Source of the DNA: Solobacterium moorei | GTDB taxonomy: Bacteria; Bacillota_I; Bacilli_A; Erysipelotrichales; Erysipelotrichaceae | Assembly: GCF_036323475.1 (NCBI RefSeq) | Contig: NZ_AP028934.1 | Span: 1 to 64,000 of the forward strand | DNA length: 64,000 bases | Reading direction: 5' to 3' | Shown here: piece by piece, positions 2,830 through 40,972 of the stretch | Numbering within the stretch: the stretch's first letter is position 1 | How the letters are laid out: each line of letters starts with the position of its first letter | The notes under the pieces: model-generated | The model's input: the letters and a program-made list of their open reading frames with translations, nothing else | The model's database searches: none | Told to the model about the DNA's origin: nothing | Made by a program: the position numbers and the translations under genes

Positions 2830-3355
2830 CTAACAGTAAACAAAAATGGCCTATGGAAATGCGATGAAATCAAGTATTTCTCTTATATGTTCCGTTGAAT
2901 AATATCAAATGTCGTAAAATTCTATCCATCTTTGGCCACAGTTCTACTGCACCTTTTACTCTAAACAGATATACAAACCAATTTAAATAGGATTGTAGAT
3001 TAGTCATTCTCATCCCAATGAAGCGATAGATATACCTTTTTAACCACGAGCACATATTGTTTATCAATGCCATGTTCTCTAGATATTCTTTGTCGTGTGT
3101 ATTGGCTTTATAGAATTCTTCTTTCAAATCTAATTCTTTTATCAGCTTGTCATGTGCTCTTTCGCCATCATGTACTAGTGTTGATCCGGAAGCGATATGA
3201 TTCTTTAGTGCTTCAAAGATACGTGAAGCAGATGGCTTTCCATGACCACAAATAGCAGCGTATGTATTTTTGTGACAATCGATTGCCACAACGATACAGA
3301 GTTGGCTCTTAGATAATCCTCTCTTCTTGTCTAGGCCATTTTTGTTTACTGTTAG
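2830..3355 (-). mobile_element. 526-bp non-autonomous IS1595-like element, copy 1
   Basis: The element is bounded by inverted repeats starting CTAACAGTAAACAAAAATGG, about 24 bp long, at 2830-2853 and 3332-3355. The sequence AAAATAAAAT occurs directly outside both ends (2820-2829 and 3356-3365), a 10-bp direct repeat that fits a target-site duplication. Inside is only the C-terminal part of a transposase on the minus strand. A second copy of exactly the same length lies at 10120-10645 in the opposite orientation. A short element that keeps intact ends and loses the N-terminal transposase half is best read as an internally deleted derivative moved in trans by a full-length relative elsewhere. 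Confidence 0.85.
2870..3289 (-). pseudogene. Transposase C-terminal fragment (IS1595/ISXO2-like)
   Basis: A 139-codon frame starting at GTG encodes the second half of an ISXO2-type DDE transposase: VAIDCHKNTY resembles the strand after the first catalytic Asp, LVHDGERAH supplies the second Asp, and INNMCSWLKRYIYRF with LQSYLNWFVYLFR is the typical C-terminal stretch. The N-terminal zinc ribbon, helix-turn-helix and first catalytic Asp are absent, because the frame runs straight into the terminal inverted repeat. It cannot be an active transposase alone. Its translation is identical to that of the copy at 10186-10605, so both copies are recent. Confidence 0.8.
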
Positions 3356-10060: not shown

Positions 10061-10089
10061 AATATATCACTGTTTTGCTACATTGACAA
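10061..10089 (-). promoter_or_regulatory. Promoter of the H1-like gene
   Basis: On the minus strand TTGTCA (10089-10084), a 17-bp spacer and TATATT (10066-10061) precede the gene. The -35 lies inside the dyad TTGACA-n6-TGTCAA (10083-10100), whose other arm gives a perfect TTGACA on the plus strand. The dyad may serve both directions or bind a regulator. Confidence 0.5.
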
Positions 10090-10119
10090 ATTTATGTCAA
10101 AATGATTAAATTATTTTAT

Positions 10120-10645
10120 CTAACAGTAAACAAAAATGGCCTAGACAAGAAGAGAGGATTATCTAAGAGCCAACTCTGTATCGTTGTGGCAATCGATTGT
10201 CACAAAAATACATACGCTGCTATTTGTGGTCATGGAAAGCCATCTGCTTCACGTATCTTTGAAGCACTAAAGAATCATATCGCTTCCGGATCAACACTAG
10301 TACATGATGGCGAAAGAGCACATGACAAGCTGATAAAAGAATTAGATTTGAAAGAAGAATTCTATAAAGCCAATACACACGACAAAGAATATCTAGAGAA
10401 CATGGCATTGATAAACAATATGTGCTCGTGGTTAAAAAGGTATATCTATCGCTTCATTGGGATGAGAATGACTAATCTACAATCCTATTTAAATTGGTTT
10501 GTATATCTGTTTAGAGTAAAAGGTGCAGTAGAACTGTGGCCAAAGATGGATAGAATTTTACGACATTTGATATTATTCAACGGAACATATAAGAGAAATA
10601 CTTGATTTCATCGCATTTCCATAGGCCATTTTTGTTTACTGTTAG
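10120..10645 (+). mobile_element. 526-bp non-autonomous IS1595-like element, copy 2
   Basis: Same 24-bp terminal inverted repeats and same length as copy 1, in the opposite orientation. ATTATTTTAT is present immediately outside both ends (10110-10119 and 10646-10655), again a 10-bp direct repeat. The two target duplications differ, so the copies arose by separate insertions and not by duplication of a segment. The right end lies about 15-40 bp from the serS T-box leader, so the insertion interrupted the sequence where the serS promoter should be. Confidence 0.85.
10186..10605 (+). pseudogene. Transposase C-terminal fragment (IS1595/ISXO2-like)
   Basis: The 139-codon reading from GTG at 10186 encodes the same protein as the fragment at 2870-3289. 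The frame is open back through the terminal repeat into flanking DNA (RGLSKSQLCIVV precedes it, a recognisable piece of the family), but there is no start codon with a ribosome-binding site inside the element. The first catalytic Asp and the DNA-binding N terminus are missing, so it is considered non-functional. Confidence 0.8.
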
Positions 10646-10660
10646 ATTATTTTATAAATA

Positions 10661-10880
10661 CGTTGATAGAGAATAGTAGTACAAAAGCATTTTCAGAAAG
10701 GTAACGGGTGATGTGAGTTGCCATTGTGATGTATGAATCCACTCTTGAGTGAAACTAATACTTTCCGGTTGTCCCGTTATCGCTAATGAAGTGGTTAAAT
10801 TGTTTCACGTGAAACAATTTAACAAAAAGGGTGGCACCGCGTTGACATCGTCCCTTTGATGGATGATGCTTTTTTATTTT
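10661..10880 (+). promoter_or_regulatory. T-box leader of serS (serine tRNA-sensing)
   Basis: The T-box core AGGGTGGCACCGCG (10829-10842) is followed by a terminator stem CATCGTCC/GGATGATG (10846-10853 with 10861-10868) and a T run (10869-10880). The alternative antiterminator pairs AGGG of the T-box with CCCT at 10852-10855. Upstream, GGTAACGGG (about 10698) can pair with CCCGTTATC (about 10773) to close a large stem. The arm between this stem and the antiterminator is the perfect palindrome at 10794-10823, which is also a parS site. Uncharged tRNA-Ser should permit read-through into serS. The specifier codon was not assigned with confidence. Confidence 0.9.
10794..10823. promoter_or_regulatory. 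parS site (ParB binding) inside the serS T-box leader
   Basis: TGTTTCACGTGAAACA (10801-10816) is identical to the Firmicute parS consensus bound by Spo0J/ParB, which is encoded at 23137. Seven more bases on each side are also complementary, giving a 30-bp perfect palindrome (10794-10823). In the transcript this forms a long hairpin where T-box leaders usually carry Stem III, so one sequence appears to act both as DNA centromere and as RNA structure. Confidence 0.9.
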
Positions 10881-10897: not shown

Positions 10898-12199
10898 ATG
10901 ATAGACATTAATCTAATTAGAGAGAATCCAGAACTTGTAAAAGAAAATATCAAGAAGAAGTTTCAAGATGAAAAGTTGGGACTCGTTGATGAAGTACAAA
11001 GCATGGATACAGAGTATCGTGCAGCGAAAACACGTGGAGATAATCTTCGTGGAGAAAGAAATAAGATTTCCAAGCAAATTGGTCTCTATATGAGAGATAA
11101 GAATATCGAAGCTGCAGAACAAGCAAAACAATCTGTAAAGGATATGGATGCGGAGTTGGAAAGTTTAGAGGTTAAAGAAGCTAAGCTTGCGGAAGAAATT
11201 AAAAATAGAATGATGGTGATTCCAAATATCATCGATTCTTCCGTTCCTATTGGAAAAGATGATTCTGAAAATGTAGAAATTCAAAAATACGGAGAACCAT
11301 TCGTTCCTTCATTTGAAATTCCATATCACACAGATATTTTAGAAAAGCTTGCAGGTATTGATATTGATAGTGCAGGTAGAACATCAGGCAATGGTTTCTA
11401 TTACTTACAAGGTGATATTGCTCGATTACATTCATCTATCTTATCTTACGCTAGAGACTTTATGATCAATCGAGGATTTACATATTTCATTCCTCCATTC
11501 ATGATTCATAGTAGTGTTGTAACAGGTGTTATGAGCTTTGCGGAAATGCAAAATATGATGTATAAAATTGAGGGTGAAGATCTATATCTCATTGGTACAT
11601 CAGAACACTCTATGATTGGGCGTTTTATGGGACAGATCTTAAAAGAAGAAGATTTACCATATGCTTTAACTTCATATAGCCCATGTTTCCGTAAGGAAGT
11701 TGGTGCACATGGAATTGAAGAAAGAGGTCTCTATCGTGTACACCAATTTGAAAAACAAGAAATGGTTGTAGTATGTAAACCGGAAGAATCAAAGGATTGG
11801 TATGATAAGTTATGGCAGAATAGTGTAGATTTCTTCCGCTCCTTAGATATTCCTGTAAGAACATTGGAATGCTGCTCTGGTGACTTAGCGGATCTTAAGG
11901 TAAAGAGTTGTGATGTTGAAGCTTGGTCTCCGCGTCAGAAGAAATATTTTGAAGTTGGAAGCTGCTCTAACTTAGGTGATGCACAGGCTAGAAGACTTGG
12001 AATTCGCATCAAGGGTGAAAAAGGCAATTATTTTGCACATACACTAAATAACACAGTAGTAGCTCCACCTCGTATGTTAATCGCATTTGTTGAAAATAAC
12101 TTAAATGAAGATGGATCACTCAACATTCCAGAACCACTCAGACCATATATGGGTGGACAGGAAAAGATTGTTCCTCCAACAAAGAAGAAGAGTTTCTAA
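10898..12199 (+). CDS. serS: Serine--tRNA ligase
   Basis: SerRS charges tRNA-Ser. The 433-residue class II synthetase has the N-terminal long coiled-coil arm (about residues 25-105) that grips the variable arm of tRNA-Ser, motif 2 with FRKEVGAHGIEERGLYRVHQ, and motif 3 with NNTVVAPPRMLIAFVENN. The C terminus ends in a typical YMGGQEKI segment plus a short lysine tail. The ATG follows GAGGT at about eight bases. Expression is controlled by the upstream T-box leader, and a second parS palindrome follows its stop codon. Length is normal for the family. Confidence 0.97.
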   Translation: MIDINLIRENPELVKENIKKKFQDEKLGLVDEVQSMDTEYRAAKTRGDNLRGERNKISKQIGLYMRDKNIEAAEQAKQSVKDMDAELESLEVKEAKLAEEIKNRMMVIPNIIDSSVPIGKDDSENVEIQKYGEPFVPSFEIPYHTDILEKLAGIDIDSAGRTSGNGFYYLQGDIARLHSSILSYARDFMINRGFTYFIPPFMIHSSVVTGVMSFAEMQNMMYKIEGEDLYLIGTSEHSMIGRFMGQILKEEDLPYALTSYSPCFRKEVGAHGIEERGLYRVHQFEKQEMVVVCKPEESKDWYDKLWQNSVDFFRSLDIPVRTLECCSGDLADLKVKSCDVEAWSPRQKKYFEVGSCSNLGDAQARRLGIRIKGEKGNYFAHTLNNTVVAPPRMLIAFVENNLNEDGSLNIPEPLRPYMGGQEKIVPPTKKKSF

Positions 12200-12207
12200 A
12201 ACACGAA

Positions 12208-12235
12208 GGATTGTTTCACGTGAAACAATTCTTTT
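12208..12235. promoter_or_regulatory. Second parS site, overlapping the likely serS terminator
   Basis: A second exact TGTTTCACGTGAAACA lies at 12212-12227, ten bases after the serS stop. The palindrome extends outward with one G-T pair (AAGGATTG at 12206-12213 with CAATTCTT at 12226-12233) and is followed by TTTTAAAAT. It can therefore act as an intrinsic terminator of serS as well as a ParB-binding site. Confidence 0.88.
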
Positions 12236-12246
12236 AAAATACACTC

Positions 12247-12275
12247 TTGGACAAGTACGATAAATTTGCTATAAT
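12247..12275 (+). promoter_or_regulatory. Promoter of the SRP RNA
   Basis: TTGGAC (12247-12252), a 17-bp spacer and TATAAT (12270-12275) place the start near 12282, the first base of the predicted RNA. This is a near-consensus promoter, as expected for a stable RNA. Confidence 0.8.
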
Positions 12276-21531: not shown

Positions 21532-22341
21532 ATGCCAAGTATTTTAAGTATATTTGATCGAAAAGATACCAATCGCATCGTAGATATCCCAATGGAGAAA
21601 ATTGTACCATCAAGATATCAACCAAGATTGGTGTTTGATGAAGAAGCTTTACGTGAATTAGCACTATCAATAAAGGAGAACGGCTTGATTCAACCAATTA
21701 CAGTTCGAAAGATTGATGATATATACGAAATTATCACAGGAGAAAGAAGATTCCGTGCATGTAAGATGATTGGTTTTAAAGAAGTGCCATGTTATATCAT
21801 GTCTCCAAATGAAAACCAAGCAGCACAGATGGCACTGGTGGAAAATATCCAACGTGAAAACTTAACTGCAATTGAAGAAGCGAAGAGCTACTTACAAATC
21901 ATGCGACAATCGGGCTTAACCCAAGAACAGGTTGCCCAAAAGGTAGGTAAGTCACAATCCGCAGTAGCCAATAAGATTCGCTTATTAAATTTACCAATTG
22001 AGATTCAGGGTGCGGTTATGGAAACAAAAATTACAGAACGTCACGCACGTGCATTATTAACTGTACCTAGTGATAAACAGAAAGAAGTATTCCATCATAT
22101 CGTCGCAGCTGAATTTAATGTAAGACAAACAGAAGACTATATCGCAAGTCTAGATGATATTCCTAAGAAGAAACATAAACATCAAAAGACAAAGGGTTTC
22201 TCTAGAAGTACACAGATTGCGGTAAATACAATTAATCAGAGTATTAAATTGATTAATAAAATGGGTATCCAAGCAAAAGTAGAAACGGAAGACAGACCGC
22301 AAGAAGTATGCATGATCATCCGTTTCCCGAAGAATTCATAA
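21532..22341 (+). CDS. noc: Nucleoid occlusion protein Noc (ParB paralogue)
   Basis: Noc is a ParB-family CTPase clamp that blocks division over the nucleoid. The 269 residues contain the ParB N-terminal domain with GERRFRACKMIG (CTP-binding region), ENIQRENLTAIEEA, and a helix-turn-helix GLTQEQVAQKVGKSQSAVANKIRLL. Its place between rsmG and parA, with a second ParB at 23137, supports Noc instead of Spo0J. The N terminus has a short basic start (MPSILSIFDRKDT) that could be the membrane-binding amphipathic helix. The Noc site known from Bacillus was not seen in the window. Confidence 0.85.
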   Translation: MPSILSIFDRKDTNRIVDIPMEKIVPSRYQPRLVFDEEALRELALSIKENGLIQPITVRKIDDIYEIITGERRFRACKMIGFKEVPCYIMSPNENQAAQMALVENIQRENLTAIEEAKSYLQIMRQSGLTQEQVAQKVGKSQSAVANKIRLLNLPIEIQGAVMETKITERHARALLTVPSDKQKEVFHHIVAAEFNVRQTEDYIASLDDIPKKKHKHQKTKGFSRSTQIAVNTINQSIKLINKMGIQAKVETEDRPQEVCMIIRFPKNS

Positions 22342-22353
22342 GGGAGAAGTATT

Positions 22354-23133
22354 ATGGGAAAGATCATCGCAATCGCAAACCAAAAGGGTGGTGTGGGGAA
22401 AACAACAACATCCATGAATCTAGCATCAGGATTATCATATATCGGTAAAAGAGTACTCTTAGTAGACTTTGATCCACAGGGGAATGCGACCCATGGTATC
22501 GGTGCACATAAAGTAGGCTTTGATAAGACGGTATATGATATCCTAATGAGAGATGAAAATGTGGATGATGTAAAGGTTACGCTACAGATGCCACCACTAG
22601 ATGTACTACCATCAACCATTGACTTATCTGGTGCAGATGTCGACATGGCACAATATGAAACAGGTCGTGAACAACTATTAAAGAGAAAACTAGAAGCGGT
22701 TAGAAATCAATATGATTACATCATTATTGATTGTCCACCTGCATTAGGTTTATTGAATACAAACGCATTAACAGCAGCAGATTCTGTAATGATTCCAGTA
22801 CAGTGTGAGTACTTTGCGCTAGAAGGATTAACACAGTTATTAAGTACAATTCGCTTAGTTCAGAAATTATGGAATCCACGATTGTCTATTGAAGGTGTAC
22901 TTCTAACAATGTTCGATGTACGTACAAAATTATCTGTAGAAGTACAACAGGAAGTACGTAAATACTTTAAGGAAAAAGTTTATCACTGTTTTATCCCACG
23001 AAATGTGCGTTTATCAGAAGCTCCATCTCGTGAACAATCAATTTTTGAGTATGATACCCGTTCGGAAGGTGCGCGTGCTTACGCACAACTTGTAAAAGAA
23101 GTAGTTACACAAAACGAAAGGATCAAACGATAG
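22354..23133 (+). CDS. parA: Chromosome partitioning ATPase ParA (Soj)
   Basis: ParA is a deviant Walker ATPase that positions origins with ParB and, in Bacillus, also modulates DnaA. The 259 residues begin with MGKIIAIANQKGGVGKTTT, the deviant Walker A with signature Lys, followed by FDPQGNATHG and IIDCPPALGLLNTNAL (Walker B). Length matches chromosomal Soj proteins without an N-terminal regulatory domain. It lies between noc and parB, with short gaps. Confidence 0.95.
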   Translation: MGKIIAIANQKGGVGKTTTSMNLASGLSYIGKRVLLVDFDPQGNATHGIGAHKVGFDKTVYDILMRDENVDDVKVTLQMPPLDVLPSTIDLSGADVDMAQYETGREQLLKRKLEAVRNQYDYIIIDCPPALGLLNTNALTAADSVMIPVQCEYFALEGLTQLLSTIRLVQKLWNPRLSIEGVLLTMFDVRTKLSVEVQQEVRKYFKEKVYHCFIPRNVRLSEAPSREQSIFEYDTRSEGARAYAQLVKEVVTQNERIKR

Positions 23134-23136
23134 AAA

Positions 23137-24030
23137 ATGGCAGAGAAAAAACAAAAAGGCTTAGGACGCGGTTTAGATTCTATCTTCGGTTCGAATGTTG
23201 AGCAGTTTCTTGACGATATTCAAAGTAGCGCTAAGGAAGTGCCTGGCAGAAGAGAGGTAGAAATCGCAATTGAAGAAATTAGACCAAATCCTTATCAGCC
23301 AAGAAAAGAATTTGATCAAACTGCGTTAAATGAATTAGCGGATTCCATTCGAACACACGGAATCTTTACACCATTACTTGTACGCAAGAGCGTCAGTGGT
23401 TATGATCTAATCACTGGTGAAAGACGTTTGCGTGCAGCGAAGATTGCTGGATTAAAGGTTGTACCTGCAATTTCTGTGGAATTTACAGAAGAACAGATGA
23501 TGGAAATTGCTATCTTAGAAAACGTACAGCGTGAAGACTTAAACGCAATTGAAGAAGCTGCAGCCTATGACTCACTTGTAAAGAAATTAGGCTATACACA
23601 AGAAAAACTGGCAGAAAGAGTTGGTAAATCTCGCGAATATTGTGCAAATATCATGAGACTCTTAAAACTTCCTTCTGAGGTCCAAAAATTAGTCATAGAT
23701 AAGAAACTAGCAATGGGACACGTTCGTCCACTACTCGGCTTAAAGGATGAGATAGAAATGCTTGATGCGGCTGAGAAGATCATGAAGGAAAAGATGTCGG
23801 TTCGTGAAGTAGAAGCCTACGTTAGAGATATTAATTCAGAAGAAGTAAAACCAAACAAAACAAAACCAGAAAAGAAACGTGATCCAATCATCCACGATCT
23901 AGAACACCAGATCTCAGTGAAACTTGGCACGAAGGTAACAATTCAGAACAAGAAACTCACAATTCGATACACAGATACAGAGGATTTAAACCGTATCTTA
24001 GAGATATTGAATTGCCTAGATGAAGGATAA
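23137..24030 (+). CDS. parB: Chromosome partitioning protein ParB (Spo0J)
   Basis: ParB binds parS, loads as a CTP-dependent clamp and spreads to build the partition complex. The 297 residues begin with the Spo0J signature KKQKGLGRGLDSIFG, followed by GERRLRAAKIAG, ENVQREDLNAIEEA, the helix-turn-helix LGYTQEKLAERVGKSREYCAN, and a C-terminal dimer domain. Two perfect parS sites occur at 10801 and 12212, about 11-12 kb toward dnaA. Three bases separate it from parA. Confidence 0.96.
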   Translation: MAEKKQKGLGRGLDSIFGSNVEQFLDDIQSSAKEVPGRREVEIAIEEIRPNPYQPRKEFDQTALNELADSIRTHGIFTPLLVRKSVSGYDLITGERRLRAAKIAGLKVVPAISVEFTEEQMMEIAILENVQREDLNAIEEAAAYDSLVKKLGYTQEKLAERVGKSREYCANIMRLLKLPSEVQKLVIDKKLAMGHVRPLLGLKDEIEMLDAAEKIMKEKMSVREVEAYVRDINSEEVKPNKTKPEKKRDPIIHDLEHQISVKLGTKVTIQNKKLTIRYTDTEDLNRILEILNCLDEG

Positions 24031-40748: not shown

Positions 40749-40972
40749 GATAACAGCAATGAAAAGAAGAGTACATTTTCTTAGAAGCGTAGAGAGTATG
40801 TGGTAGGTGAAAACATGCATGAAGGGAAAATGGAACATGGTCTTGGAGCTGGTCATGCGAAGAGTATGACCCGGAGACGTCCGTTACAACGAAGAGAGGC
40901 AGATGATTGAATCATCCGCAAGACAAAGGTGGTAACGCGTGCAAGACGTCCTTTCATTTGGGATGTCTTTTA
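40749..40972 (+). promoter_or_regulatory. T-box leader of metG with ATG specifier
   Basis: The T-box core AGGTGGTAACGCG (40927-40939) is followed by a terminator stem ACGTCC/GGATGT with a T run near 40947-40972. Stem I can be drawn: CATTTTC (about 40779) pairs with GAAAATG (about 40826-40832) above, AAGA with TCTT below. The internal loop between them holds AGTA on the left and GAACATGG on the right, exactly where the specifier sits, so the codon ATG (40837-40839) reads tRNA-Met. A second hairpin GGTCAT/ATGACC follows. The leader covers most of the 438-base gap between cspA and metG. Confidence 0.9.

Follow-up and report, generated by a model that had tools for sequence, protein, structure and literature searches.

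The systems closest to the locus reported here are the parS sites of chromosomal ParABS (Soj/Spo0J), the serine T-box leaders of RF00230, the parS3 and parS4 sites of P. aeruginosa and the binding sites of Noc (NBS). According to a review of T-box structures (PMC7583486), the aminoacylation discriminator cannot do without Stem III, a hairpin with a variable stem and loop that has 5'-RRRxG on one side and AA-3' on the other. The strength of this requirement is debated, since a truncated Stem III had only a minor effect in a single-molecule study of glyQS, where a role in pausing was suggested (PMC6197855). The P. aeruginosa sites, located upstream of PA0011 and PA0013, are intergenic parS copies next to a promoter at which ParB affects expression (PMC5521831).

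The DNA analyzed in this study (the window, 64,000 nucleotides) is the start of the single-contig 2.6-Mb chromosome of Solobacterium moorei. As in other chromosomal ParABS systems, an exact parS consensus (TGTTTCACGTGAAACA) is located close to oriC, in the same region as soj and parB; it differs in lying inside a predicted RNA-switch element and in being one of only two sites, which bracket the seryl-tRNA synthetase gene serS. The leader shares with serine T-boxes the RRRxG-Stem III-AA arrangement, the T-box sequence, the terminator, a serine specifier and the downstream serS, whereas its Stem III, usually variable in sequence, appears to carry a nearly invariant 16-bp protein-binding palindrome at its apex. 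The site resembles parS3 and parS4 in being an intergenic parS by a promoter, but the paper on those sites does not describe them as part of a leader-RNA structure, and an effect on expression is hypothetical for the site in the window. Individually, parS, T-boxes and effects of ParB on expression are already known; no report of parS inside a T-box, or as a riboswitch element, was found in open-access papers, and the combination appears new. The 30-bp palindrome is very probably one element with two selected functions, acting as parS when read as DNA and as Stem III when read as RNA. The features of the locus are listed in Table 1.

Table 1. Features of the serS locus and of the ParABS gene cluster, in window coordinates.
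Feature	Position	Strand	Basis and remarks
serS promoter, TTGACA, spacer 17-18, TTAAAT	10083..10112	+	Promoter scan
IS1595-family transposase ORF	10102..10605	+	NCBIfam NF033547, 63.1 bits, below its cut-off of 75
serS T-box leader, RF00230	10654..10858	+	cmscan; specifier UCC (Ser)
RRRxG purine motif, AAGTG	10789..10793	+	Directly 5' of Stem III; read from sequence
Stem III	10794..10823	+	13-bp hairpin with ACGU loop, parS core plus 7-nt arms; Rfam alignment, fold, arm covariation
parS core, TGTTTCACGTGAAACA	10801..10816	.	Exact match; predicted ParB nucleation site; in RNA, apex of Stem III
AA	10824..10825	+	Directly 3' of Stem III; read from sequence
T-box intrinsic terminator	10846..10868	+	Followed by CTTTTTT; terminator scan, fold
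serS, seryl-tRNA synthetase	10898..12199	+	TIGR00414, 396 bits, E 1.7e-118
Second exact parS	12212..12227	.	12 bp after serS stop; folds as 13-bp hairpin, then UUUU
noc (ParB paralogue)	21532..22341	+	TIGR04285, 315.4 bits, cut-off 315
soj/parA	22354..23133	+	ParA-family matches, all below equivalog cut-offs; position directly 5' of parB
parB/spo0J	23137..24030	+	TIGR00180, 189.7 bits; all parS-contact residues of PMC7383237

A first-pass annotation had described a 16-bp parS core within a 30-bp perfect palindrome, and both were confirmed at 10794-10823. The palindrome (GTTAAATTGTTTCACGTGAAACAATTTAAC) is perfect, and its middle 16 bp match the parS consensus with 0 mismatches, sites with 0-1 mismatch being counted as parS. 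A search of the whole chromosome (2,615,268 bp) revealed only two exact copies, the one in the leader and the one behind serS, which the earlier annotation had not listed, together with one further parS-like copy carrying two mismatches at 1.15 Mb. Approximately 0.0006 exact 16-mers are expected by chance in 2.6 Mb, and a reversed control pattern gave 0 matches across the same chromosome. The leader copy is origin-proximal, at 10.8 kb from dnaA (dnaA at 101), and a noc-soj-parB cluster is located at 21.5-24.0 kb. Translation of parB revealed residues Q162, G170, K171, S172, R173, N178, G201 and R204, and the same residues contact parS in the Caulobacter ParB structure (PMC7383237); with R173, G201 and the six other shared contact residues, the protein has the features of a cognate ParB. 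As double-stranded DNA, the central 16 bp would be one of two exact candidate sites for ParB loading, to which this protein presumably binds.

The leader matched the covariance model RF00230 with 118.4 bits (E 1.4e-25, gathering threshold 93), and the Rfam alignment placed the parS palindrome at Stem III, the hairpin just 5' of the T-box sequence, as the first-pass annotation had proposed for this serS leader. The RRRxG and AA motifs (10789-10825 with the stem) sit exactly at the stem ends. The same arrangement was observed across the leaders compared, where RRRxG was found in 71 of 73, AA in 71 of 73, and both flanking the stem in 70 of 73. The specifier, read from sequence, is UCC in the window and UCC or UCU in the serS leaders of relatives, matching Ser, and 19 of the 20 relatives' loci checked exceeded the RF00230 gathering threshold. 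Amongst the remaining 15 T-boxes of the genome, the nearest to parS has at least 4 mismatches. A second T-box leader in the window (40750-40956, 126 bits), directly upstream of the methionyl-tRNA synthetase gene, has an ordinary Stem III. As RNA, the entire palindrome would form Stem III of a serine T-box controlling serS. What probably matters most for Stem III in the discriminator is its shape and the flanking purines (RRRxG ... AA), so that a perfect inverted repeat like parS would fit there at little cost, and the arms outside parS may have been adjusted at the RNA level so that the helix closes.

An insertion sequence with inverted ends and a duplicated target (10102-10605) lies between the serS promoter and the T-box. 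Because it separates the two, the serS leader is about 0.5 kb longer in this strain; a relative whose SerS is 94% identical (L063) has no IS at the corresponding spot. This IS1595-family element is present in two copies in the window, the other at 2870-3289. Promoters with TTGACA and spacing of 16-18 nt are present in the leaders of most relatives.

Constraints on DNA and on RNA could be separated by comparing the core with its arms. The exact 16-mer was found in 67 of 74 distinct leaders, over which the mean pairwise identity was 98.8% for the core and 33% and 38% for the two arms. Despite this divergence, approximately 90% of leader arm positions (90-91%) are paired, compared with 37% in the parS copies located after serS (p=3e-20), and pairing beyond the core extends for a mean of 6.1 bp, versus 2.5 bp with shuffled flanks (p=5e-13). 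When 3' arms were swapped between leaders with equal arm lengths, the observed pairing was never reached in 2000 trials. The near-identical core and the divergent, still paired arms argue for constraint on the core at the DNA level and on the arms at the RNA level.

Covariation was scored in 17 distinct 30-nt stems, aligned without gaps; three sequences with arms of equal length were omitted because a bulge shifts their pairing out of register. The score was 0.39, compared with 0.17 in shuffled alignments, where relatedness inflates the comparison, and with 0.01-0.08 for slid structures, a control free of that effect. Changes on both sides were counted in 27 cells, and 0 of 500 shuffles matched the observed covariation. 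In these stems six of the 13 pairs vary, on both sides; the inner seven never vary and are thus uninformative about RNA pairing, for or against. The stem-closing pair is G-C in 46 leaders and A-U in 14. Additionally, G.U wobbles account for 40 pairs, and 31 of 70 leaders have at least one. Of the 70 stems, only 15 are perfect palindromes in DNA. Both observations indicate that pairing is maintained in the RNA and not as a longer DNA palindrome. The proposal of a single sequence with roles in both DNA segregation and RNA folding, made in the first-pass annotation, is therefore supported in the sense of a shared sequence, as judged from the core present in all readable leaders of the genus, the covarying arms and the flanking RRRxG and AA.

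The parS copy behind serS is also common in the genus: in 51 of 55 loci, a parS lies no more than 100 bp from the serS stop. In the window, this copy with its UUUU may possibly act as the serS terminator, and the SRP RNA at 12274 has a good promoter (TGGACA-16-TATAAT) that starts 20 bp past the end of this copy. Terminator-like hairpins were observed among such copies in the window and in relatives L038 and L066; a general role of post-serS copies as terminators was rejected, as their arms are unpaired in most loci. The two positions also differ in transcription: every serS transcript runs through the leader copy, whether or not it is terminated, and the copy after serS is reached by full-length transcripts only, or by none.

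Relatives were found by SerS similarity and belong to the Erysipelotrichaceae, mostly rumen or gut MAGs labelled Solobacterium or Erysipelotrichaceae. Within the genus, parS was identified in the serS leader of all 57 readable genomes (52 exact, 5 with one mismatch). Across the family, 16 of the 35 genera with a scorable serS T-box, own genus counted, carry parS in Stem III, and the other 19 have an ordinary hairpin or another leader instead; two additional sampled genera without a recognizable T-box stand outside the 35. Leaders free of parS are 7-9 mismatches away from it at the Stem III place, so no gradual resemblance to parS is seen, and many of these genera have parS directly after serS instead. 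Since 19 genera lack parS in Stem III, the sharing is essential to neither function. The first-pass annotation had regarded a normal Stem III without parS in relatives as a sign that the dual role is accidental. The comparison gave both outcomes, with parS fixed in the 57-genome genus and recurring in many genera, and a normal Stem III in 19 genera of the family, and this mixed result favors a real dual role.

In another family of the same order, the search for the parS-T-box pattern gave no match, and parS sites there are often near dnaX. Among about 343 genomes sampled from outside the order, 7 have parS immediately 5' of the serS T-box sequence. They represent five genera from four families elsewhere in the class, and leaders from all four families scored above the Rfam threshold. 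Three of them (L235, L236 and L237, from two families) carry a further exact parS approximately 230-250 bp upstream of the Stem III copy, between the preceding gene and the T-box. One locus named Oscillospiraceae (L133), with one-mismatch parS sites before and after serS, was excluded since it has no T-box sequence; another (L172), with parS near the T-box at odd spacing and with an unpaired flank, was not used in the Stem III tests.

On a SerS tree (quick FastTree, 117 rows, unrooted), the parS label of 115 T-box leaders needs 4 changes, compared with about 26 when labels are shuffled. By this count, parS in Stem III characterizes whole clades and has rarely been gained or lost, the two being indistinguishable on an unrooted tree. 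Identity among SerS proteins encoded behind parS leaders falls as low as 33%, and those with parS leaders outside the order are 33-35% identical to the SerS of the window. The arrangement of the leader thus either predates the present serS gene or does not depend on it. With two types of SerS, one old origin and two origins are both possible, and the sequences suggest either that the gene body was replaced behind a kept leader or that the arrangement arose twice. The closest match to the SerS of the family is clostridial SerS, at up to about 79% identity; the SerS of L235-L241, from other families of Bacilli, shares only 33-35% with that of the family.

Noc sites (TATTTCCCGGGAAATA, a 14-mer), a palindrome related to parS, were sought as a possible second use of the locus. 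No NBS within 1 mismatch was found in the whole genome, and the window site is an exact parS with A at position 6, not an NBS. The Noc protein of the window has NBS-type specificity residues (equivalents of Q173, K179 and R201), and matches to the NBS with 3 mismatches numbered 19, versus 8 when the pattern was reversed as a control. One clade of the genus (G066, G087, G017 and G011) has a leader core that is off by one base at the position that discriminates parS from NBS, and its second parS is exact. These four members thus carry parS/NBS hybrids in Stem III (TGTTTCACGGGAAACA in L168, L170 and L171; TGTTTCCCGTGAAACA in L169); the change hits each half-site once and, in RNA, falls in the loop.

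Single-function readings of the palindrome account for part of these data. Any parS yields a 6-bp hairpin in RNA, including the copies after serS, and a parS that came to lie in the leader by chance would have such a hairpin as a by-product. Under this DNA-based reading, the arm pairing, the covariation and the G.U pairs would not be confined to leaders and missing from post-serS copies, nor would RRRxG and AA be expected exactly at the stem ends, and we consider it very improbable. A sequence kept for an RNA reason and unused by ParB fits with transcription of the site and with the predicted fold as Stem III; against this stand the unrelated Stem III sequences of relatives and a fixed part that is exactly the ParB site, one of only two in the genome of the window, which make this reading less probable still. 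The clustering of parS on the SerS tree would also follow from a single chance insertion in an ancestor that has not yet eroded under common descent without selection. This explanation is refuted by arms that diverged to 33-38% identity around an unchanged core, unless the core mutates unusually slowly, and the differing SerS proteins behind parS leaders also speak against it; it is the least probable of the explanations considered.

A regulatory coupling between the two functions would be an addition to the dual-function reading. ParB or ParB-CTP clamps may block or delay RNA polymerase at Stem III, in which case the segregation state would tune serS at the T-box decision point, or serS transcription may strip ParB from the site, with the T-box limiting traffic. 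Since parS lies between promoter and terminator, every transcript has to cross it, and in vitro work on glyQS has reported that RNA polymerase pauses close to Stem III (PMC6197855). Published effects of ParB point both ways: ParB at parS3/parS4 represses neighboring promoters in P. aeruginosa (PMC5521831), and loss of Spo0J in B. subtilis left the expression of genes beside parS unchanged (PMC7022226). Due to these reports, mutual interference is plausible, and so is the suggestion of the first-pass annotation that ParB loading blocks serS transcription or that transcription disturbs ParB. Other clades of the family with a plain Stem III in place of parS argue against a coupling, which we regard as unlikely. 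A more specific form, with a somewhat lower probability, is that ParB at Stem III acts at the step in which the T-box senses tRNA charging and ties serine-tRNA supply or starvation to origin segregation, which would explain the long retention of the site despite differing SerS.

The dual-function reading of the palindrome would offer a natural case in which one short sequence is under two selections, as a DNA-protein site and as an RNA fold, that can be separated position by position. With a centromere inside a regulated, transcribed leader, the sharing of DNA by ParB clamps and RNA polymerase becomes testable. Additionally, the locus suggests why foreign information can be accommodated in Stem III, a hairpin required for its shape but free to vary in sequence.
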